Positions 12 to 9,884 of a stretch of DNA of 64,000 bases are shown here, one piece after another. Under the pieces are notes generated by a model. That model saw only the letters and a program-made list of their open reading frames with translations, did not search any database and was not told where the DNA came from. The translations under genes were made by a program, and so were the position numbers. Source of the stretch: Burkholderiales bacterium (GTDB lineage Bacteria; Pseudomonadota; Gammaproteobacteria; Burkholderiales; Burkholderiaceae_C). The DNA lies in assembly GCA_947381415.1 (NCBI GenBank), contig CANCVB010000006.1:1-64000 (forward strand), in the 5' to 3' direction. Position 1 is the stretch's first letter, and every line of letters starts with the position of its first letter.

Positions 12-37
12 GAAACCTTTGGTGGCCACGCAGCGAA
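12..37 (+). promoter_or_regulatory. ECF (SigF-type) promoter of bufA1
   Basis: GAAACC at 12-17, a spacer of exactly 16 bases, and CGAA at 34-37. The same architecture with GTAACC or GTAACT occurs before the ECF sigma gene and before bufA2 in this window, and it agrees with the GTAACC-N16-CGAA promoter recalled for Caulobacter SigF. The -35 differs at one base. Transcription would begin near 44, leaving a leader of about 58 bases. The assignment is inferred from motif and spacing. Confidence 0.72.
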
Positions 38-101
38 TTGGTCTGGCAGCAAGCCCTTTTGGCCTTGTCTGTTGATTGCACACCCACCAAGGAGCTTTTT
101 C

Positions 102-416
102 ATGCAAACCCTGTCCCACACCACCTCCCCCTCTGGCAAAGCCCTGTTGGCCCTGGCCCTGGGTCTTGCCTTGAGCCTGTCCGCTGTCCCTTCACAGGCC
201 AAAGACGCCAAGACCGAGAAATGCTTTGGCGTGGCCCTCAAAGGGCAAAACGATTGCGCTGCGGGTGCTGGCACCACCTGTGCGGGCTCCTCCGCCAAAG
301 ACCACCAGGCCAATGCTTGGAAGTTGGTGCCCAGCGGCACCTGTGTGAAAACCGCCTCCATGACCTCGCCCACGGGCTTTGGCCAGCTCCAAGCATTCAA
401 AGCCAAAAAGGGCTGA
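102..416 (+). CDS. bufA1: BufA1 (DUF2282) periplasmic bufferin-type metallophore precursor
   Basis: A 104-residue precursor with a Sec signal peptide (hydrophobic stretch about residues 13-30, probable cleavage after PSQA). The short secreted domain carries four cysteines in the contexts KCFG, NDCAA, TTCAG and GTCVK, the DUF2282 pattern. Family members are ribosomal peptides whose cysteines are modified by an MNIO enzyme with a BufC partner; they bind copper in the periplasm. The ATG at 102 is preceded by AAGGAG at good spacing, so I prefer it to a TTG at 72. The maturase gene starts 5 bases after the stop. Modification and copper binding are known for the family and inferred here. Confidence 0.9.
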
Positions 417-421
417 ACCCC

Positions 422-1252
422 ATGGCACTGCCTGTGGGCGTGGGCATCGGTCTCAAGACCGCCTATGTGAACGAGGTGCTGAGCGCGCCCATTGGCGCTT
501 TGGGTTTTGTCGAGGTGCATGCCGAAAACTACCTGGTCGCTGGCGGTCCGTTTCACCGCCATTTGAGCGCGGTACGCAGCCAGAGGGCTTTGTCTTTGCA
601 TGGCGTGAGTTTGTCGTTGGGCGGCAGCGAAGCCTTGGACACCCAGCACCTGCAAGACCTGCGTCAGCTGATCGACCGCTACCAGCCGGCGCAGTTCTCT
701 GAACACCTGGCCTGGTCCACCCACGGCGCACATTACCTGCCCGACTTGCTGCCACTGGCTTACAACGACGCCAGCTTGGCGCGGGTGTGTGCCCATGTGG
801 ACCAAACCCAAGAAGCGCTCGGCGTGCGTTTGCTGCTGGAGAACCCCGCCACCTATGTGGCGTTTGAAGCCAGCGAACACGCCGAGGCCGATTTTTTGAG
901 CGAGGTGGTGCGGCGCACCGGCTGCGGCTTGCTTTTGGACGTGAGCAACGCCGTGGTGTCCTGCACCAACCACCAGCGCGATTTGCACCGCTATTTGGGC
1001 GAACTGCCTTTGGACGCGGTGGAGCAAATTCATTTGGCGGGCTTTGCCACTGAAGAGGACTCGTTGGGCGAAGCCTTGTTGATCGACAGCCACGACGCAG
1101 CCATTGCCGATTCGGTGTGGGCGGCGTATGAATGGGTGCTGGCACGCACAGGCGCAGTGCCCACCCTCATCGAGCGTGACCAACAGCTACCGCCCTTCGC
1201 CTTGTTGATGCATGAGGTGCAAACCGCGCAAACCTGTCTGGCGGCTTTGTGA
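422..1252 (+). CDS. bufB1: MNIO-family bufferin maturase (DUF692)
   Basis: A 276-residue DUF692/MNIO enzyme with a TIM-barrel fold and a multinuclear iron site. Visible family motifs, in order, are SLHGVSLSLG, FSEHLAW, LLLENPATYV, LLLDVSNAVV, QIHLAG, LIDSHD and TLIER, which supply the usual His/Glu/Asp/Asn ligands. The enzyme is expected to oxidise precursor cysteines, forming thiooxazole-type rings on BufA1. It starts 5 bases after bufA1 and its TGA overlaps the GTG of bufC by four bases, implying coupled translation. An open frame continues upstream to position 38, but that part overlaps bufA1 and lacks family similarity. Confidence 0.92.
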   Translation: MALPVGVGIGLKTAYVNEVLSAPIGALGFVEVHAENYLVAGGPFHRHLSAVRSQRALSLHGVSLSLGGSEALDTQHLQDLRQLIDRYQPAQFSEHLAWSTHGAHYLPDLLPLAYNDASLARVCAHVDQTQEALGVRLLLENPATYVAFEASEHAEADFLSEVVRRTGCGLLLDVSNAVVSCTNHQRDLHRYLGELPLDAVEQIHLAGFATEEDSLGEALLIDSHDAAIADSVWAAYEWVLARTGAVPTLIERDQQLPPFALLMHEVQTAQTCLAAL

Positions 1253-2109
1253 AAACGCAGGCCATGTCATCCCCGGTGCGCGAGCGCCAGCGCCCGCCCA
1301 CGCCAGACAGTGCGGCGGCGTGGGTGCGGGCTTTGCAAGACAGCGAGGCCCCCTTGCCCAGTGGCCTTGTGAGCGCCAACGGCTCCAGTGTGGCGCAGCG
1401 TTTTGCCATCCACCGCAACAACGTGCTCAGTGCCTGCGTGCAGGCCTTGGCCGACACCTTTCCCGTCTGCCAAGCCTTGGTGGGCGAGGCTTTTTTCTCT
1501 GCCATGGCGCTGGCGTTTGCCCAGCAACACCTGCCGCGCACGCGCAAGCTGGCTTTTTATGGCAAGGGTTTTGCAGCGTTTGTGCGCGGGTTTGCACCTG
1601 CGCAGTCGCTGCCGTATGTGGCCGATGTGGCGCAGCTGGAAATGGCGCGGGTACAGGCCTACCACGCAGCCGATGCCGAGGGCGTGTCCCCCGCTCTTTT
1701 GCACGCGGCGCTGCACCCCGACGCCGACCTGCCCGCGTGGCGCTTGGCCTTGCATCCCAGCTTGCACCTGATCGATTCGCCCACGGCCGCGCGCTCGCTG
1801 TGGCAAGCCCACCAGCACGGTGCAGCGCAACGCGACGCCTTGTTGGCCGACATCGATCTGCGCCGCCCCGAATGCGCAGCCGTGTTTCGAAGCGGCGACG
1901 CGGTGTTGTGCATTCCCCTGGCTGCCGCCGAGATGGGCTTGCTGCGCGGCCTGCAAGCCAGACAGACCTTGGGCGAGGCCATGTCCCAAGCCACCGCCAG
2001 TACCGAGGGCGATGCCCTTGACATGACCCACACGCTGGCGCTGTTGCTACAGCACCACCTCATCACCGATGTGATGCCACCCCTTTCTGAACACCCCCAC
2101 GGAGACTGA
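1249..2109 (+). CDS. bufC1: BufC/HvfC-type RiPP maturation partner (DUF2063)
   Basis: A 286-residue protein with the DUF2063 N-terminal domain (residues about 22-110, including RFAIHRNNVLSACVQALADTFPVCQALVGEAFF) and a C-terminal winged-helix-like part. In MNIO systems this protein presents the precursor peptide to the maturase. The start is GTG at 1249, overlapping the bufB1 stop as GTGA. The gene has a standalone form here, whereas the opposite-strand cluster fuses the same two domains in one polypeptide. Confidence 0.88.
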   Translation: MKTQAMSSPVRERQRPPTPDSAAAWVRALQDSEAPLPSGLVSANGSSVAQRFAIHRNNVLSACVQALADTFPVCQALVGEAFFSAMALAFAQQHLPRTRKLAFYGKGFAAFVRGFAPAQSLPYVADVAQLEMARVQAYHAADAEGVSPALLHAALHPDADLPAWRLALHPSLHLIDSPTAARSLWQAHQHGAAQRDALLADIDLRRPECAAVFRSGDAVLCIPLAAAEMGLLRGLQARQTLGEAMSQATASTEGDALDMTHTLALLLQHHLITDVMPPLSEHPHGD

Positions 2110-2110
2110 G

Positions 2111-2629
2111 ATGAACAAACCGAAGACAAGGCCCCAACACCGGTTGGTGCAGCTGTACCAAGGCTGGCTGGCCCCCGTGGTGCAGCAGATGAACCACTTG
2201 CCCTACAGCCCCTTGGCTTTCTTGGCGCGGTTTTCCATCGCGGCGGTGTTTTGGCAATCGGGCCAAACCAAGGTGCAAGGTTTTGCCATCAACATCATCA
2301 GCGGCACCTACCAACTCGGCTGGCCGCACTTGGCCGATGGCGTGGTGGATTTGTTCGAGTCCGAATACCACTTGCCCCTGCTGCCCCCCGAACTGGCCGC
2401 CACCCTGGCCGCGCTGGGCGAGCATGTGTTGCCCGTGTTCATCTTGCTGGGCTTGGCCACGCGCTGGTCGGCACTGGCGCTCTTGGGCATGACCTTGGTG
2501 ATTCAGTGGTTCGTTTACCCCAGCGCTTACGCCACCCATGGGGTGTGGGCCAGTGTGCTGTTGCTGCTCATCAGCCAAGGGCCGGGCAAGTGGTCGGTGG
2601 ACCAGTGGCTTGACGCCCGATTCAACTGA
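2111..2629 (+). CDS. DoxX-family membrane protein of the bufferin operon
   Basis: A 172-residue integral membrane protein of the DoxX family with about four hydrophobic segments (near residues 34-50, 98-118, 120-140 and 140-160). It starts one base after the bufC1 stop and ends the operon bufA1-bufB1-bufC1-doxX. DoxX proteins are regular partners of DUF2282/DUF692 operons, but their biochemical role is not settled; a redox or membrane-export role is a guess. The last 8 bases overlap the end of the convergent bufB-bufC fusion gene. Confidence 0.85.
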   Translation: MNKPKTRPQHRLVQLYQGWLAPVVQQMNHLPYSPLAFLARFSIAAVFWQSGQTKVQGFAINIISGTYQLGWPHLADGVVDLFESEYHLPLLPPELAATLAALGEHVLPVFILLGLATRWSALALLGMTLVIQWFVYPSAYATHGVWASVLLLLISQGPGKWSVDQWLDARFN

Positions 2630-4328
2630 CGCGCAGGAGCCCTTGACTCAACCAGCTTTGCAGCCAAGCGCCCAGCACCTCGGGCGTGGGCAAAACATCG
2701 GTGTCGGCAAAGCGCTCTGCGGCTTCTTGGATGGACGCGCCTTCAGCCAGCGCTTGCATGAAGCGGTATTGCGCGGCGTCCAAGCGCATGAAGTGGGGTT
2801 GAAAGTGCCAGCGCCACACCACCAGGCCCGCGCCGCTGTCATCGCGTTGCACCGCGGGCACCTCGGTGTCGTCGTCGATGGCTCGCCACAATTTCACCGC
2901 GTTGCTTTGGCTGTGGCGCAGCACCACGCTGGGGTGCAAAGGCGCGGCCATGGTCAAGCAGGCGACCTCGCCCTCGGCGTCGGGCTGCAGTGCGTCAAGG
3001 GCAAAGGCCGGTACATCGGCCCCGTCAAAGCGGGTGCGCAAATCCCAATCGAGTTGCGCCAACTCAGCCAGCTCGAGGTTGTCGGGATAGGTCTGTTGCA
3101 AAAACGCGGGCAACTTGTCGCCATAGCGGCCCAGGTTGCGCAAGGCGGGCGGCTGCGCCACTGCGAACTCGCTGGCGTGCTGCTCGAACAGCTCACCCAT
3201 GTAGGCGCTGGTTTTGGCAAAGCTGTCGCGCAGCACCTCACACAAGCGCAAGCGGTAGGCGCGGTGGTAAATGCCCAAGCGCGCATGTGCGGTGTCGCTG
3301 ACGCTTGGGGCCAGGCGCAGCAGGGCTGGCGCTTCTTCGGGAAGTGGGTCTTGCAACACGCTGGTGACCCAGTCCTTTTGTAACGCCAGCAGATCGGGGG
3401 CTTCGGAGCCGTCATTGCGGCGTTGCGCTCGCTCCTCGACATGACAGAACACAGAGGGCTTGGCCATGCTCGCCATGACGCTACCTGCCGTGCCGATATT
3501 CGCTTTGGCAATCGCCCTGGCTTGGTCCAACTCCGCCAGCAACGCAGGCAGAGGCGGGATGTCGTCATCGCGCTCGATCATGGTGGCCACCGCGCCAAAA
3601 CGGCGGCAGGCGGCGGCGTACAAAGCCCAGACCGCGTCACACACCGGATGGTCGTGGGTGTCGATGATGTGGGTGGGGTTGCGGCTGTGGCCAGCCAAAT
3701 GGATTTGCTGCACCCGGTGCGCGGGCAAGGCGTTCAGGTAGTCCAACGGGTCAAAGCCGTGGTTCACGGCTGAGACGTAAACATTGTTCACATCGACCAG
3801 CAGCAAGCAGTCGGCCTCTTGCGCCACATGGCTCAAAAATGCCCACTCGGTAGCGCCGCTGTGGGCAAAGCTCACATAGCTGGAGACGTTTTCCACCACC
3901 AAGCGGCGTTGCAAGATGTCTTGCGCTTGCGAGATGTGCGCGATCAAGCGTCTGGCGGCCTCTTCGGTGTACGGCAAGGGGTTCAAGTCATGCAACACGG
4001 TGTTGCCCAAGCCGCTCCAACACAAATGGTCGGACACCCACAGGGGCTGCACACGGTCAGCGAGTTGTTTGACCTGTTGCAAATAGGCCAGGTTCAGGCC
4101 ATCGGCGCTGCCCAGGGACATGGCCACGCCGTGCATGGCCAAAGGATGGTCGCGGCGGATGAAGTCCAGCATCTGGAGAGGCCGACCCCCCTCGACCAAA
4201 AAATTGTCGGTGATGATTTCCAGCCAATCCAGGGGCTGGCGCTCGCGCTGGAAATCGGGGTAATGCGGGGTGCGCAAACCCAGGCCAAAGCCTGGGCTTG
4301 CGACGCACAAAGACGTCAAAGACTTCAC
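2622..4328 (-). CDS. Fused MNIO maturase-BufC protein (BufB2-BufC2)
   Basis: A 568-residue two-domain protein. Residues about 10-280 form a DUF692/MNIO maturase (AMHGVAMSLG, VSDHLCWS, VVENVSSYV, VDVNNVYVS, QIHLAGHS, IIDTHDHPV, MIERDDD). Residues about 308-568 form a DUF2063/BufC protein (LGIYHRAYRLRLCEVLRDSF). The joint is a 23-residue stretch encoded by a palindromic repeat-like segment. The GTG at 4328 overlaps the bufA2 TGA (GTGA), so I use it rather than the longer open frame to 4475, which runs through bufA2. Fusion of precursor-modifying enzyme and peptide carrier fits their joint function. Confidence 0.88.
   Translation of the reverse strand: MKSLTSLCVASPGFGLGLRTPHYPDFQRERQPLDWLEIITDNFLVEGGRPLQMLDFIRRDHPLAMHGVAMSLGSADGLNLAYLQQVKQLADRVQPLWVSDHLCWSGLGNTVLHDLNPLPYTEEAARRLIAHISQAQDILQRRLVVENVSSYVSFAHSGATEWAFLSHVAQEADCLLLVDVNNVYVSAVNHGFDPLDYLNALPAHRVQQIHLAGHSRNPTHIIDTHDHPVCDAVWALYAAACRRFGAVATMIERDDDIPPLPALLAELDQARAIAKANIGTAGSVMASMAKPSVFCHVEERAQRRNDGSEAPDLLALQKDWVTSVLQDPLPEEAPALLRLAPSVSDTAHARLGIYHRAYRLRLCEVLRDSFAKTSAYMGELFEQHASEFAVAQPPALRNLGRYGDKLPAFLQQTYPDNLELAELAQLDWDLRTRFDGADVPAFALDALQPDAEGEVACLTMAAPLHPSVVLRHSQSNAVKLWRAIDDDTEVPAVQRDDSGAGLVVWRWHFQPHFMRLDAAQYRFMQALAEGASIQEAAERFADTDVLPTPEVLGAWLQSWLSQGLLRVS
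3411..3479. repeat. REP-like palindromic segment in the fusion linker
   Basis: The boundary pieces GTCATTGCG (3411-3419) and CGCCATGAC (3471-3479) are inverted with 8 of 9 matches. An inner ATGAC at 3440-3444 mirrors GTCAT at 3411-3415. The peptide encoded on the minus strand contains SVFCHVEERAQRRNDG, which resembles translations of dispersed GTCATTGCGAG-type palindromic repeats known in other bacteria. It sits exactly between the MNIO and DUF2063 domains. I found no second copy in the window, so its repeat status is inferred. Confidence 0.5.
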
Positions 4329-4603
4329 AGGTCGCCGATGGTGCCTTTGGAAGACAGGCATTTGGCGGCGCTGACGGCTTTGAAGCCATGGCCTTTGCAA
4401 GCGTTTTGGCCTTTGCAGCTGTTCTCGGCCGTTTTGCAATCGCTGTTGCCTTTGCAGTCGTGGATGTTGTAGCAATGCACGGTGTCGTTGGCGGCAACGG
4501 CTTTGCCCATGGAACCCATGGGGGCGTCAGCGGCAAATGCACTGGCGGACAAGGCCAAAACCGCAGCGGCCATGGCGAAGGAAGTGGTGGAAGTGGTTTT
4601 CAT
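4325..4603 (-). CDS. bufA2: BufA2-type periplasmic bufferin metallophore precursor
   Basis: A 92-residue precursor with a signal peptide (about residues 8-24, ALSASAFAA) and a cysteine-rich, lysine-rich mature part. Six cysteines lie in VHCYN, HDCKG, SDCKT, NSCKG, NACKG and AKCLS; the CKG repeats separate it from the four-cysteine DUF2282 type of bufA1. The ATG at 4603 follows GGAGCTTTTC, almost the same ribosome-binding leader as bufA1. It is translationally coupled to the fused maturase downstream. Copper binding after cysteine modification is family knowledge, not visible directly. Confidence 0.85.
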   Translation of the reverse strand: MKTTSTTSFAMAAAVLALSASAFAADAPMGSMGKAVAANDTVHCYNIHDCKGNSDCKTAENSCKGQNACKGHGFKAVSAAKCLSSKGTIGDL

Positions 4604-4678
4604 GAAAAGCTCCAAAAGGACAAGGTTGAGAAATGGCCGCAGCATGCATCGCCTGATGTGGCCACGGTCATGAAGCAA

Positions 4679-4704
4679 TTCGCCACACCCTGTCCAGAAG
4701 TTAC
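4679..4704 (-). promoter_or_regulatory. ECF (SigF-type) promoter of bufA2
   Basis: Read on the minus strand: GTAACT (4704-4699), 16 bases, CGAA (4682-4679). The spacing is identical to that of the bufA1 and sigma-gene promoters, with a one-base change in the -35. Transcription would start near 4672, giving a leader of about 70 bases before bufA2. It is back-to-back with the sigma-gene promoter, whose -35 lies about 64 bases away. Confidence 0.75.
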
Positions 4705-4767
4705 AGTGGCGAGCCTCTTTTGCGCCTGCTTTTTTTCAGGTGTAATGCCTCGTCAATTTGAATCCGC

Positions 4768-4793
4768 GTAACCTTTTCTGCCTTTTCCACGAA
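4768..4793 (+). promoter_or_regulatory. ECF (SigF-type) promoter of the sigma gene itself
   Basis: GTAACC at 4768-4773, a 16-base spacer, and CGAA at 4790-4793. This is an exact match to the SigF consensus recalled from Caulobacter and indicates autoregulation. The -10 ends only 10 bases before the ATG at 4804, so the transcript would have almost no leader. Confidence 0.78.
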
Positions 4794-4803
4794 GTAGTCT
4801 CTG

Positions 4804-5361
4804 ATGCAACAAGACATCCATTTGATTGAAGTGCAGTTGCATGCCCAATGGCTGCGCGCCATCGAAGGTGATGGCGCGGTTTACACCCAAGTGTTGTTGG
4901 CCTTGAGCCATTTGCTGCGCGGCTTCATGCGACGCCGCATGCAAACCCACCCCAACGACGTGGAAGATTTGGTACAGGAAACTTTGATGGCGATTCACCA
5001 AAAGCGACACACCTACGACACCCAACAGCCCTTGACGGCCTGGGTGTTTGCGATCGCACGCTACAAATGGATAGACCATTTGCGGGTGCATGGCCGGCGC
5101 ACGCCGCCCATGGAGGACATTGACGACTGGGCCGATCTTCTGAGCACAGACAATGAACACCATGACTGTGATTCTCGACACGACTTGAAGCACATGTTGT
5201 CTGAATTGCCCGAGAAACAGCGTGTGGCCATTGAGCACACCCGCTTGCAGGGCGCGTCCATCGCGCAAACGGCTTTGCTGACCGGACAAAGCGAGGCAGC
5301 GGTCAAGGTGAACGTGCACCGTGGTCTGAAAACATTGAGTCAAAAGTGGAGCACCTCATGA
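4804..5361 (+). CDS. ECF RNA polymerase sigma factor (SigF-like)
   Basis: A 185-residue ECF sigma factor. Region 2 is around residues 45-100 (NDVEDLVQETLMAIH, LTAWVFAIARYKWIDHLR). Region 4 is around residues 125-180 (LPEKQRVAIEHTRLQG, then the helix-turn-helix TGQSEAAVKVNVHRG). The downstream gene is a DUF1109 anti-sigma factor overlapping by four bases (ATGA), the arrangement of Caulobacter sigF-nrsF. Its own promoter and the two bufferin promoters share one motif, so these are its likely targets. A GTG at 4831 is an alternative start if the transcript is not leaderless. Confidence 0.9.
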   Translation: MQQDIHLIEVQLHAQWLRAIEGDGAVYTQVLLALSHLLRGFMRRRMQTHPNDVEDLVQETLMAIHQKRHTYDTQQPLTAWVFAIARYKWIDHLRVHGRRTPPMEDIDDWADLLSTDNEHHDCDSRHDLKHMLSELPEKQRVAIEHTRLQGASIAQTALLTGQSEAAVKVNVHRGLKTLSQKWSTS

Positions 5362-5993
5362 AAACCCATGAATTGATTGGCTTGTTGGCCAGCGACGCGG
5401 CCCTTCCCACGCAAAGCCAGTGGCGGCTGCCTGCCTCCGTCCTGATGGCTGGCTTGCTCAGCCTGGCCTTGGTGGCGGGGGTCTGGGGCTTGCACCATGA
5501 CTTGCCTGGCCTGTTTCAAAGCGACAGCTTCCAACTCAAACTGCTGTGGGTGTTGGTGCTGATGGTCGGCAGTGCCTGGGTCTTGCGCCGTGTCGCGCGG
5601 CCATCGCAACGCATGGGCCAGGGTATTTATGTGCTGGTCTTGGCCTTTTTGGCCATGGACCTGGCCGGGGCCAATGCCATGCTGCAGGCGCAACCCGATC
5701 AGCGCCTGGCCTTGATGCTGGGCCGCTCTTGGTGGGCCTGTCCTTTGAGCATCACCGTCATCTCTTTGCCTTGGATGGGCGTGTGGATGCAGTACCTGCG
5801 CCAGATGGCACCCACCCGCCTAGCACTGAGTGGTGCGGTGGCCGGTTTGCTCTCGGGCGTGACGGCCACGGCTTTTTACAGCCTGCACTGCACGGAAACC
5901 TCGTTTGCGTTTTTCAGTGTGTGGTATTTCGCCGGCATGGCCCTGAGCACCTTGTTGGGCGCGGTCTTGGGTGCGTGGTTTTTGCGCTGGTGA
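5358..5993 (+). CDS. nrsF: NrsF/DUF1109-family anti-sigma factor
   Basis: A 211-residue membrane protein with about six hydrophobic segments (starting near residues 27, 61, 88, 125, 155 and 190), typical of DUF1109. Family members hold the cognate ECF sigma at the membrane and release it under metal stress, by a route thought to involve conserved cysteines. Cysteines here are in WWACPLS and LHCTETS. The start is ATG at 5358, overlapping the sigma TGA. The gene ends one base before the end of the convergent metH gene, leaving no room for a terminator. Confidence 0.87.
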   Translation: MKTHELIGLLASDAALPTQSQWRLPASVLMAGLLSLALVAGVWGLHHDLPGLFQSDSFQLKLLWVLVLMVGSAWVLRRVARPSQRMGQGIYVLVLAFLAMDLAGANAMLQAQPDQRLALMLGRSWWACPLSITVISLPWMGVWMQYLRQMAPTRLALSGAVAGLLSGVTATAFYSLHCTETSFAFFSVWYFAGMALSTLLGAVLGAWFLRW

Positions 5994-5994
5994 C

Positions 5995-8789
5995 TTACAG
6001 GTTGGGCGCGAGCAAGCGCTGCAAGTCTTTCTCGGCCACGCCTTGGCGCTGGGCCAGGTCGTGCACCTGGTCGTCGCCGATGCGGCCCACATTGAAATAC
6101 CGGGCCTCGGGGTGGGACAGGTAAAAACCACTCACGCTGGCCGCAGGTGTCATGGCCATGCTGTCGGTCAGGGTCATGCCAATGTCTTGGCATTGCAGCA
6201 ACTCGAACATCTGTTGTTTCACGCTGTGGTCGGGGCAGGCGGGGTAGCCCGGTGCAGGGCGTATGCCTTGGTATTGTTCTTTGACCAGTGCTTCATGGCT
6301 CAACTGCTCGGCGGCGGCATAGCCCCACAGATCGCGGCGCACACGGGCGTGCATGCACTCGGCAAAGGCCTCGGCCAAACGGTCGGCCAAGGCCTTGAGC
6401 ATGATGGCGCTGTAGTCGTCGTGGTCGTCCATGAAGTACTTTTCTTTGGCGTCCACGCCCAAGCCCGCGGTCACCGCGAACAAGCCCACATGGTCTGCGC
6501 CTTGGCCCACAGGCGCCACAAAGTCGGAGAGACAGCGGTTGGGGTTGTGCGCGCCATCGCGCAGTGGTTTTTCGGTTTGCTGGCGCAGGCCGTACCAGGT
6601 GAGCGCTTTGTGTGTCCGACTCTCGTCGGTCCAGAGCACGATGTCGTCGCCCACGCTGTTGGCCGGGTACAGGCCCACCACCGCATGGGCTTGCAACCAA
6701 CGCCCTTCAATCAGGCGCTTCAACATGCGCTTGCCGTCACTGAAGACGCGCTGCGCCTCGGTGCCCACCACCTCGTCTTTCAAAATGGCCGGAAACGGTC
6801 CTGCCAGGTCCCAGGTTTGGAAGAACGGGCCCCAGTCGATGAAGGGCTCGAGTTCGGCGAGGTCAAAGTTTTTGAACACCCGCTTGCCGATGAACTTGGG
6901 GGCGGTGGCTTGGTAAGACGCCCAATCCAAGCGTGGCGCATTGGCACGCGCTTTGGCCAGTGGCAACAGGGGAGTTTGTTTTTTGTTGGCGTGTTGCTCG
7001 CGCACTTTCGCATAGTCGGTGTTCAAGTCTTGGATGTACTGCGCGGCTTGGTCGCTCAACAAACCTTGGGCCACGCCCACGCTGCGTGAAGCGTCTGGCA
7101 CATAGACCACCGGGCCTTCATAGTGCGGGGCAATCTTCACCGCCGTGTGCACACGGCTGCAGGTGGCGCCCCCGATGAGCAGCGGGATTTTGCGCAAGCG
7201 AAAGTAATCGTCCTTTTGCATTTCACCCGCCACATACTGCATCTCTTCCAAGGAGGGCGTGATGAGGCCAGACAGGCCAATGATGTCGGCACCTTCGACC
7301 TTGGCTCTGGCCAAAATTTCGTGGCAAGGCACCATCACACCCATGTTGACCACGTCGAAGTTGTTGCACTGCAAGACCACGGTGACGATGTTCTTGCCAA
7401 TGTCGTGCACATCGCCCTTGACGGTGGCGATGACGATCTTGCCCTTGGTTTTCACATCCTCGCCAGCGGCTTCTTGCTGGCGTTTTTCTTCTTCGATGTA
7501 GGGAATCAGGTGGGCCACGGCCTGCTTCATCACGCGCGCGCTTTTCACCACCTGTGGCAAGAACATCTTGCCCTGACCAAACAAATCACCCACCACGTTC
7601 ATGCCGTCCATGAGTGGGCCTTCGATCACATGCAGCGGCCGCCCGCCACGGGCCAACACCTCTTGATAAGCGGCTTCGGTGTCTTCGTTGATGAAGTCGG
7701 TGATGCCATGCACCAGCGCGTGGCTGAGTTTGTGCGACACGCTCACGGGTGCTTCGGGCGTGCCACGCCAAGCGAGTTTGGCGCTGTCGTCCTTGGCCGC
7801 ACCTTTGGCGCTCTCGGCCACTTCAATCAGGCGCTCACCTGCAGTGAGGTGCTCTTCGCCGTCTTTGTATCGCGGCGTTCTGTTCAAGACCACGTCTTCG
7901 ACACGCTCGCGCAGCCTGGGTTCGAGGTCGTCGTACACCCCCACCATGCCCGCGTTGACGATGCCCATGTCCATGCCCGCTTGAATCGCGTGGTACAAAA
8001 ACACGGTGTGTATGGCTTCGCGCACCGGGTCGTTGCCACGGAAAGAAAAACTCACGTTCGACACGCCACCACTCACCTTGGCGCCGGGCAGGTTCTGTTT
8101 GATCCAGCGCGTGGCGTTGATGAAGTCCACCGCGTAGTTGTCGTGCTCTTCAATGCCGGTGGCGATGGCGAAGATGTTGGGGTCAAAAATAATGTCTTCG
8201 GGCGCAAAGCCCACCTCGTCCACCAACACGCGGTAAGCGCGCTCGCAAATCTCCACTTTGCGTTGGTAGGTGTCGGCCTGGCCTTGTTCATCGAAGGCCA
8301 TGACCACAGCGGCCGCACCATAGCGCTTGATCAATTTGGCTTGGCGTTTGAATTCGTCCAAACCCTCTTTCATGCTGATGGAGTTGACGATGCCTTTGCC
8401 TTGGATGCAGCGCAGCCCCGCTTCGATCACGCTCCACTTGCTGCTGTCGATCATGATGGGCACACGGGCGATGTCGGGTTCAGACGCAATGAGATTCAAA
8501 AACCGCACCATGGCCGCCTGACTGTCGAGCATGGCCTCGTCCATGTTGATGTCGATGATTTGCGCGCCGTTTTCCACCTGTTGCCGCGCCACCGCCAAAG
8601 CCTGCTCGTACTCGCCATTCAAGACCATGCGGGCAAAGGCCTTGGAGCCGGTGACGTTGGTGCGCTCGCCGATGTTGACAAAGGTGGCTTGCTGCGCCGT
8701 GCCTGTGCCGTGATCGCTGGCGGTCACGCCAATGCGAACCGGCTCCAGGCCTGAGAGCAACATGGGGGGAACGGCTGTGTGTGGGGTCG

Positions 8790-8793
<4 letters not shown>
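5995..8793 (-). CDS. metH: Methionine synthase, C-terminal part (folate, cobalamin and activation domains)
   Basis: A 932-residue protein covering MetH modules 2-4. The pterin-binding domain starts [16 protein letters not shown] (about residues 38-55). The cobalamin-binding Rossmann module has GDVHDIGKN, with the His that ligates cobalt, near residue 480. The AdoMet reactivation domain has [12 protein letters not shown] near residue 885. The homocysteine-binding zinc module is encoded by the separate upstream gene, which overlaps this start by four bases (ATGA). Two-gene MetH is common in Burkholderiales, so this is not a frameshift. It transfers the methyl group of 5-methyl-tetrahydrofolate to homocysteine via cobalamin. 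Confidence 0.96.

Positions 8794-9884
<1,091 letters not shown>

Follow-up and report, generated by a model that had tools for sequence, protein, structure and literature searches.

The window analysed here is 64 000 nucleotides from the start of contig CANCVB010000006.1 (our C6) of a Burkholderiales bacterium (assembly GCA_947381415.1; 2.51 Mb in 40 contigs). It opens with genes for two pathways to bufferins, copper-buffering peptides, and for an extracytoplasmic function (ECF) sigma factor with its membrane anti-sigma factor. Over the first 6 kb the order is bufA1-bufB1-bufC1-doxX on the forward strand, bufB2C2 and bufA2 on the reverse strand, and sigF-nrsF on the forward strand. The original prediction, made from the sequence alone, held that three transcription units here share promoters of the Caulobacter SigF form and constitute a complete local regulon. 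Genomes and loci are given below by our own G and L numbers, and statements about cited papers refer to the excerpts of them that were available.

The bufferin-1 operon begins with bufA1 (102..416, +), encoding a precursor of 104 amino acids (aa) with four Cys that scores 79.3 bits with the DUF2282 family (Pfam PF10048, cut-off 22.4) and gave no match in the NCBIfam profile search; its signal peptide was assessed by eye from the sequence only. Next comes bufB1 (422..1252, +), encoding the maturase, a multinuclear non-heme iron-dependent oxidase (MNIO, DUF692; PF05114, 322.2 bits; NF050167 MNIO_BufB, 350.3 bits, cut-off 310), followed by bufC1 (1249..2109, +) for its DUF2063 partner of PME type 1 (PF09836, 74 bits, cut-off 27.2) and by a gene for a DoxX-family membrane protein (2111..2629, +; PF07681, 65.1 bits, cut-off 23.6). 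The last two proteins score under the cut-offs of the NCBIfam HvfC and HvfX models, respectively. With a four-Cys DUF2282 precursor, an MNIO and a DUF2063 partner, the operon qualifies as a bufferin 1 pathway.

On the opposite strand, bufA2 (4325..4603, −) encodes a 92-aa precursor recognised by NF050166 Cu_RiPP_BufA2 (100.8 bits, cut-off 60), with no match in the Pfam search; its six Cys are unchanged across 15 sequences. The bufA2 stop codon is overlapped by the GTG start of bufB2C2 (2622..4328, −), whose 568-aa product joins an MNIO domain (PF05114, residues 14-274) to a DUF2063 domain (PF09836, residues 343-410), both above the Pfam cut-offs, and scores 369.2 bits with NF050167 (cut-off 310). 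Six-Cys BufA2, MNIO and DUF2063 domain together give a bufferin 2 pathway. The profile searches thus uphold the gene families that had been named for the locus, with one correction: the bufA2 operon has a single fused gene where separate bufB and bufC had been supposed. The genome has two MNIO genes (PF05114), both at this locus. Matches from PDB searches confirm MNIO relatives only.

The 185-aa ECF sigma factor encoded by sigF (4804..5361, +; PF04542, 49.4 bits, and PF08281, 48.2 bits, both above cut-off) is 40-64% identical to nrsF-linked sigma factors of relatives in the family. Its stop codon is overlapped by the start of nrsF (5358..5993, +), placing the two in one operon. NrsF has 211 aa and scores 169.3 bits with PF06532 (cut-off 26.8). 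Its Cys128 and Cys178 are invariant in eight aligned NrsF proteins, and among 70 NrsF-like open reading frames (ORFs) Cys fills 63/68 and 61/69 of the occupied rows at these two columns.

Each of the three units is preceded by an ECF16/SigF-type promoter string with a spacer of exactly 16 bases: GAAACC-N16-CGAA at 12-37 (+), 64 bases before the bufA1 start; GTAACT-N16-CGAA at 4704-4679 (−), 75 bases before the bufA2 start; and GTAACC-N16-CGAA at 4768-4793 (+), 10 bases before the sigF start (each distance is the number of bases between CGAA and the start codon). The ECF16 form GTAAC-N17-CGAA is exact at sigF and bufA2 and has one change (GAAAC) at bufA1. The bufA1 promoter starts at contig base 12, so nothing 5′ of it is visible. 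GWAACY-N16-CGAA is found three times in the window against 0.30 expected, a count reached by 0/100 dinucleotide shuffles.

Genome-wide, GWAACY-N16-CGAA makes up 11 of the 32 sites of the broader form GNAACY-N16-CGAA. Three are the local ones, and all eight elsewhere fall inside ORFs, on either strand, that are 170 aa or longer, with one site spanning an ORF start; the ORFs used for placement are mechanical calls, not annotated genes. Judged by these ORFs, no GWAACY site in the genome other than the local three is placed as a promoter. The strings, their exact spacing and the local regulon of the original prediction therefore stand for this assembly, including under the genome scan that it had offered as its own refutation test, and with no MNIO gene elsewhere 'self-contained' is a fair description. 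We rejected a wider sigma-F regulon here (msrPQ, as in Caulobacter), as no further GWAACY site precedes a gene. The looser GSAACY form (GCAACY or GGAACY) has 21 sites, 20 of which were placed relative to ORFs, C36:3131 (GCAACC) being left out; two of them (L001, GCAACT; L004, GGAACT) stand in front of long ORFs and were set aside, as the base in second position is off the forms considered.

The bufA2 promoter form was then compared with the presence of NrsF across genomes. A sample of 150 genomes from the same family gave NrsF (PF06532) in 26, BufA2 (NF050166 above cut-off) in 28 and both in four, including the window genome. Within the genus, 16/84 genomes have NrsF and 4/84 have BufA2, and all four bufA2 genes adjoin sigF-nrsF and carry the motif. 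NrsF was above cut-off in 56/399 genomes of an order sample and 75/398 of a phylum sample, and among 120 additional NrsF-containing order and phylum genomes BufA2 was above cut-off in 3/80 and 8/40. The sets compared were 18 genomes with both proteins and the 24 BufA2 genomes of the family sample that lack NrsF. GTAACY-N16-CGAA lies in the 600 bases that precede the BufA2 match in 13/18 of the former and 0/24 of the latter (Fisher 3.4e-7); 11 of the 18 are from outside the family and entered only via NrsF, with no NrsF-lacking genomes from there to set against them, which makes the contrast within the family the fair one. Within the family alone (f1) the motif is upstream of BufA2 in 7/7 genomes with NrsF, four from the 150-genome sample and three from the 84 genus genomes, and in 0/24 without it (p 3.8e-7). 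Spacers of 10-15 and 17-23 bases gave no match upstream of BufA2 in either set, and the best of 1998 permuted patterns reached 1/18 genomes. Two of the NrsF-containing genomes (G774, G865) have bufA2 divergent from bufA1, near sigF.

Genomes lacking NrsF tend to have another ECF-like form before bufA2. GTAAGR-N15/16-CGAC lies within 400 bases upstream in 18/24 of them and in 0/18 of those with NrsF; about 1500 permuted control patterns gave a mean of 0.13 and a best of 9, the latter from a string overlapping the GTAAGR form by one shift. The longer TGTAAGR-N15/16-CGACNNA is rare, with one to three sites per genome and seven in all in the three genomes tried. Its sites precede bufA2 and a bufA1-like gene in both G103 and G077; the others stand before a YedY/MsrP-type ORF (G033), before a DsbD-like ORF (G103) and inside a sigma gene (G077), the two ORF labels having been read from printed sequences. 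The bufA1-like gene of G077 is divergent from a gene for a TIGR02943 sigma factor (232.7 over 162.2 bits) accompanied by a small anti-sigma factor (NF052368, 64 over 50). TIGR02943 is above cut-off in 21/24 NrsF-lacking and 1/18 NrsF-containing BufA2 genomes (p 9e-8), and within the family in 21/24 and 1/7, respectively (p 7e-4). One genome, G027, holds both systems: its bufferin 2 genes adjoin nrsF and carry the sigma-F form; a TIGR02943 sigma gene lies near another bufA1-like gene, and between these two genes, about 750 bases ahead of the bufA1 match, is a GTAAGA-form site. From this co-occurrence we infer that the GTAAGR form probably belongs to the TIGR02943 sigma factor. A further string, GCATCC-N16-CGTA, is found upstream of bufA2 in 8/24 NrsF-lacking genomes (G116, G060, G096, G007, G143, G030, G062, G054) and 0/18 with NrsF.

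Ancestry was considered as an explanation of the promoter form on a BufB2 tree of 42 rows (one of them an outgroup) built by a quick method, with 10/39 inner branches starred. The fewest changes needed are eight for the sigma-F promoter state and one for the MNIO-DUF2063 fusion. The promoter state therefore follows the regulator rather than ancestry, and the lineage explanation was rejected on the eight changes; two things tell against this use of the tree, namely that genomes with a CGTA variant of the promoter (below) were scored as lacking the form, and that an independent-pairs test had three pairs on starred branches, too few for significance. We also dismissed the gene fusion as the novelty of the window: it is present in 9/36 bufferin 2 loci tested and, with its single change on the tree, is shared by a clade and not specific to the window. 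For that test 37 of the 42 bufferin 2 genomes entered, five CGTA genomes being excluded, and L147, which has no MNIO match, was dropped. The available part of the 2025 bufferin survey (PMC12452194) makes no mention of such a fusion.

We interpret the locus as a self-contained SigF/NrsF (ECF16-type) stress module driving two bufferin pathways, and put the probability of this at about 0.72. The reading is founded on the gene families, the promoters, the genome-wide placement of the form and the coupling of the bufA2 promoter with NrsF, all demonstrated above; by analogy with Caulobacter and related systems we infer the signal, the release of the sigma factor, the modification chemistry, metal binding and protection. 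NrsF would retain sigma-F on the inner membrane. A signal in the periplasm, for which excess copper is proposed as the most likely candidate on the Caulobacter example, would act on NrsF through its two conserved Cys and free sigma-F, which would then use the three GWAACY-N16-CGAA promoters to transcribe its own operon, bufA1-bufB1-bufC1-doxX and bufA2-bufB2C2. Together with a DUF2063 partner that is a protein of its own in pathway 1 and part of the same chain in pathway 2, each maturase would convert precursor Cys to thiooxazole before export, a chemistry known from other bufferins (PMC12668002). The outcome would be two distinct copper chelators in the periplasm, which would take the signal away.

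Beyond the sampling outside the family and the scoring of the tree, several observations weigh against this interpretation. The window NrsF reaches 111.6 bits with the NCBIfam equivalog NF042994, under its cut-off of 300. The bufA1 promoter reads GAAACC, not GTAACC. Five of the 18 BufA2 genomes with NrsF are without the strict form; four of these have GTAACN-N16-CGTA, and the fifth, G808, has neither form in the tested stretch and the CGTA form before its other bufA2 copy. At the nrsF loci fetched from these five genomes no CGTA form precedes the sigma gene, so their bufferin 2 genes cannot be assigned to the NrsF-linked sigma factor. As to the signal, the Caulobacter regulon answers chromate and cadmium too (PMC3511200), and ECF16 promoters of Sinorhizobium gave no response to peroxide, cadmium or chromate (PMC6180224).

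A true SigF/NrsF regulon might instead have reactive chlorine or another thiol oxidant as its main signal, with bufferins as sacrificial or metal-limiting protectants. Related ECF16 systems of Brucella (PMC8315932) and of perchlorate reducers (PMC4623255) serve against hypochlorous acid or hypochlorite together with msrPQ/yedYZ and a Met-rich protein, which also counts against copper, and in our relatives sigma-F sites precede Met-rich and cytochrome-b-like proteins. In the window genome no GWAACY site precedes other genes, and so no msrPQ or Met-rich target is seen; we consider a thiol oxidant unlikely as the main signal.

The three strings might also be remnants or chance occurrences, the bufferins being driven by a copper-responsive two-component system, a MerR regulator or a TIGR02943-type sigma factor. 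Genome-wide the string is indeed no commoner than its reversed control (32 GNAACY-N16-CGAA sites against 109, 46 + 63), so not enriched as such, and most NrsF-lacking relatives have the GTAAGR form before bufA2. Chance strings were rejected on the genome-wide placement, the spacer scan, the permuted patterns and the coupling to NrsF. The window has no GTAAGR-N15/16-CGAC site and its genome no TIGR02943 match above cut-off (two-component and MerR boxes were not searched for), and we give this alternative very little weight. That sigma-F controls just bufferin 1 and sigF-nrsF, bufA2 resembling the form through a shared divergent region, would agree with the survey, which places sigma/NrsF genes in bufferin 1 and not bufferin 2 clusters (PMC12452194), but is highly improbable given that bufA2 keeps the motif when its operon and nrsF are on separate contigs (G138, G071) or far apart on the same contig (G569), and has its own motif when downstream of nrsF (G751, G862, G756).

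Taking the SigF/NrsF module together with the second promoter form, we think it rather probable that bufferin operons are portable cargo, repeatedly rewired between SigF/NrsF (GTAACY-N16-CGAA) and a TIGR02943-family sigma factor (GTAAGR-N15/16-CGAC). When a regulator is gained, lost or swapped, a change of a few −35 and −10 bases would move bufferin 2 to the other regulator; in the window, SigF/NrsF would have taken over both bufferin classes and with them the whole MNIO capacity of the genome. Bufferins form a large and recently recognised class, and for few organisms is it known how they are regulated. This locus points to a single membrane anti-sigma switch being able to govern both classes; sigma/NrsF genes would then no longer count as confined to bufferin 1 clusters. 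The two promoter forms may serve as a sequence-based predictor of the ECF system behind a given bufferin operon, and would offer a natural case of promoter rewiring in which the alternatives are a few base changes apart.

Other arrangements were seen among the relatives. Three genomes without NrsF (G103, G012, G006; loci L128, L132, L135) have bufferin-1-like and bufferin-2 operons adjacent to each other, so the pairing of the two bufferin classes is not bound to SigF. At L197, L208, L187 and L189 (G751, G756, G774, G865) bufA1 and doxX lie near the bufferin 2 genes with no MNIO of their own recognised in the stretch fetched; one maturase may serve two precursor classes there. G931, a genome of the window's genus, has sigF-nrsF divergent to an MNIO operon whose promoter reads GTAACC-N16-CGAA (L242:9250-10428); the 81-aa precursor encoded there is HvfA/oxazolin-like (NF050137, 26.8 over 19.5 bits, but below the cut-off of the full HvfA model) and the MNIO is of HvfB type (NF003818, 395.2 over 360 bits). 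L243, L245 and L246 (G909, G906, G930) have the same motif and MNIO layout, the family scans covering L242 only. A single type of regulator therefore seems to accompany exported MNIO precursors of three classes. At bufferin-free nrsF loci, in the stretches fetched, sigma-F sites stand before cytochrome-b-like ORFs (L092, L097, L212, L215), before Met-rich ORFs with KDSM repeats (L240, L244, L213, L216) and before a thioredoxin-like ORF (L110), as read by eye. A tandem nrsF pair in G266 (L212:7974-9356) has GTAACC-N16-CGAA both before sigF-nrsF and before the second nrsF. In the window itself, just past nrsF on the reverse strand (5995-9884), ORFs at 8790-9884 and 5995-8793 resemble, by eye, a split cobalamin-dependent methionine synthase.

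The closest known system is SigF/NrsF of Caulobacter crescentus, where sigF-nrsF has a GTAACC-N16-CGAA promoter, yet is only partly sigma-F dependent (PMC3511200); the promoter form had thus been given correctly in the original prediction, as had SigF control of DUF2282/DUF692 operons. From this promoter form, Caulobacter sigma-F controls CC2907-2905 and CC3254-3257, both with DUF2282, DUF692 and DUF2063 genes and the second with DoxX, as well as, in part, the YedY gene CC2748 (PMC3511200). The regulon, along with sigF and nrsF themselves, is copper-inducible, and mutation of sigF makes the cells sensitive to copper (PMC8224329). As in the window, a DUF2282-DUF692-DUF2063-DoxX operon lies beside sigF (PMC3511200, PMC8224329), and NrsF has two Cys 50 residues apart, C131 and C181 there, both required (PMC3511200), and C128 and C178 here. 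Unlike in the window, the second Caulobacter operon is again of bufferin 1 type (DUF2282) and is located elsewhere in the genome, and YedY/msrPQ belongs to the regulon too. The second pathway of the window is of bufferin 2 type and has a fused maturase, everything fits into 6 kb, and no further target came to light. RpoE7 of Sinorhizobium is another ECF16 case, with DUF692 and DUF2063 genes and GTAAC promoters (PMC6180224).

Brucella BcrS/AbcS and SigF/NrsF of the perchlorate reducers likewise pair an ECF16-type sigma factor with an NrsF-family anti-sigma factor (PMC8315932, PMC4623255), and Brucella shares the two conserved Cys (C129, C179) and (T/C)GTAAC-N17-CGAA promoters (PMC8315932). They differ from the window in being tied to msrPQ/yedYZ and a Met-rich protein, and the available parts of the two papers make no mention of a bufferin target. 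The system of G077, with its TIGR02943 sigma factor, NF052368-type anti-sigma factor and GTAAGR-N15/16-CGAC form, neither regulator nor form being found in the window, is comparable to gig of Cupriavidus metallidurans and sigma-E/MseR of Neisseria, a likeness that leaves RpoQ and Neisseria sigma-E unassigned to the TIGR02943 family. The Neisseria sigma-E/MseR operon, we take it, carries bufferin-like genes. Like the window, gigPABT-rpoQ-rsqA (PMC10304878) and sigma-E/MseR (PMC3240639) have an ECF sigma factor and anti-sigma factor beside or in the operon. The gig operons count among the bufferin clusters (PMC12452194); copper and gold induce gig, whose control by RpoQ is unproven (PMC10304878).

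Bufferin 2 clusters as surveyed share with the window a BufA2 with six Cys, a BufB-type MNIO and a DUF2063 partner (PMC12452194; NF050166), but are described without sigma/NrsF genes, whereas the bufferin 2 operon of the window adjoins sigF-nrsF, shares its promoter form and has MNIO and DUF2063 in one protein. No report of bufferin 2 under SigF was found in the open-licence PMC literature, among the matches listed and in the excerpts available. Bufferin 1 under SigF is already known; bufferin 2 under SigF is new, contrary to the published survey, and is met repeatedly among genomes, in alternation with another ECF-like promoter form.

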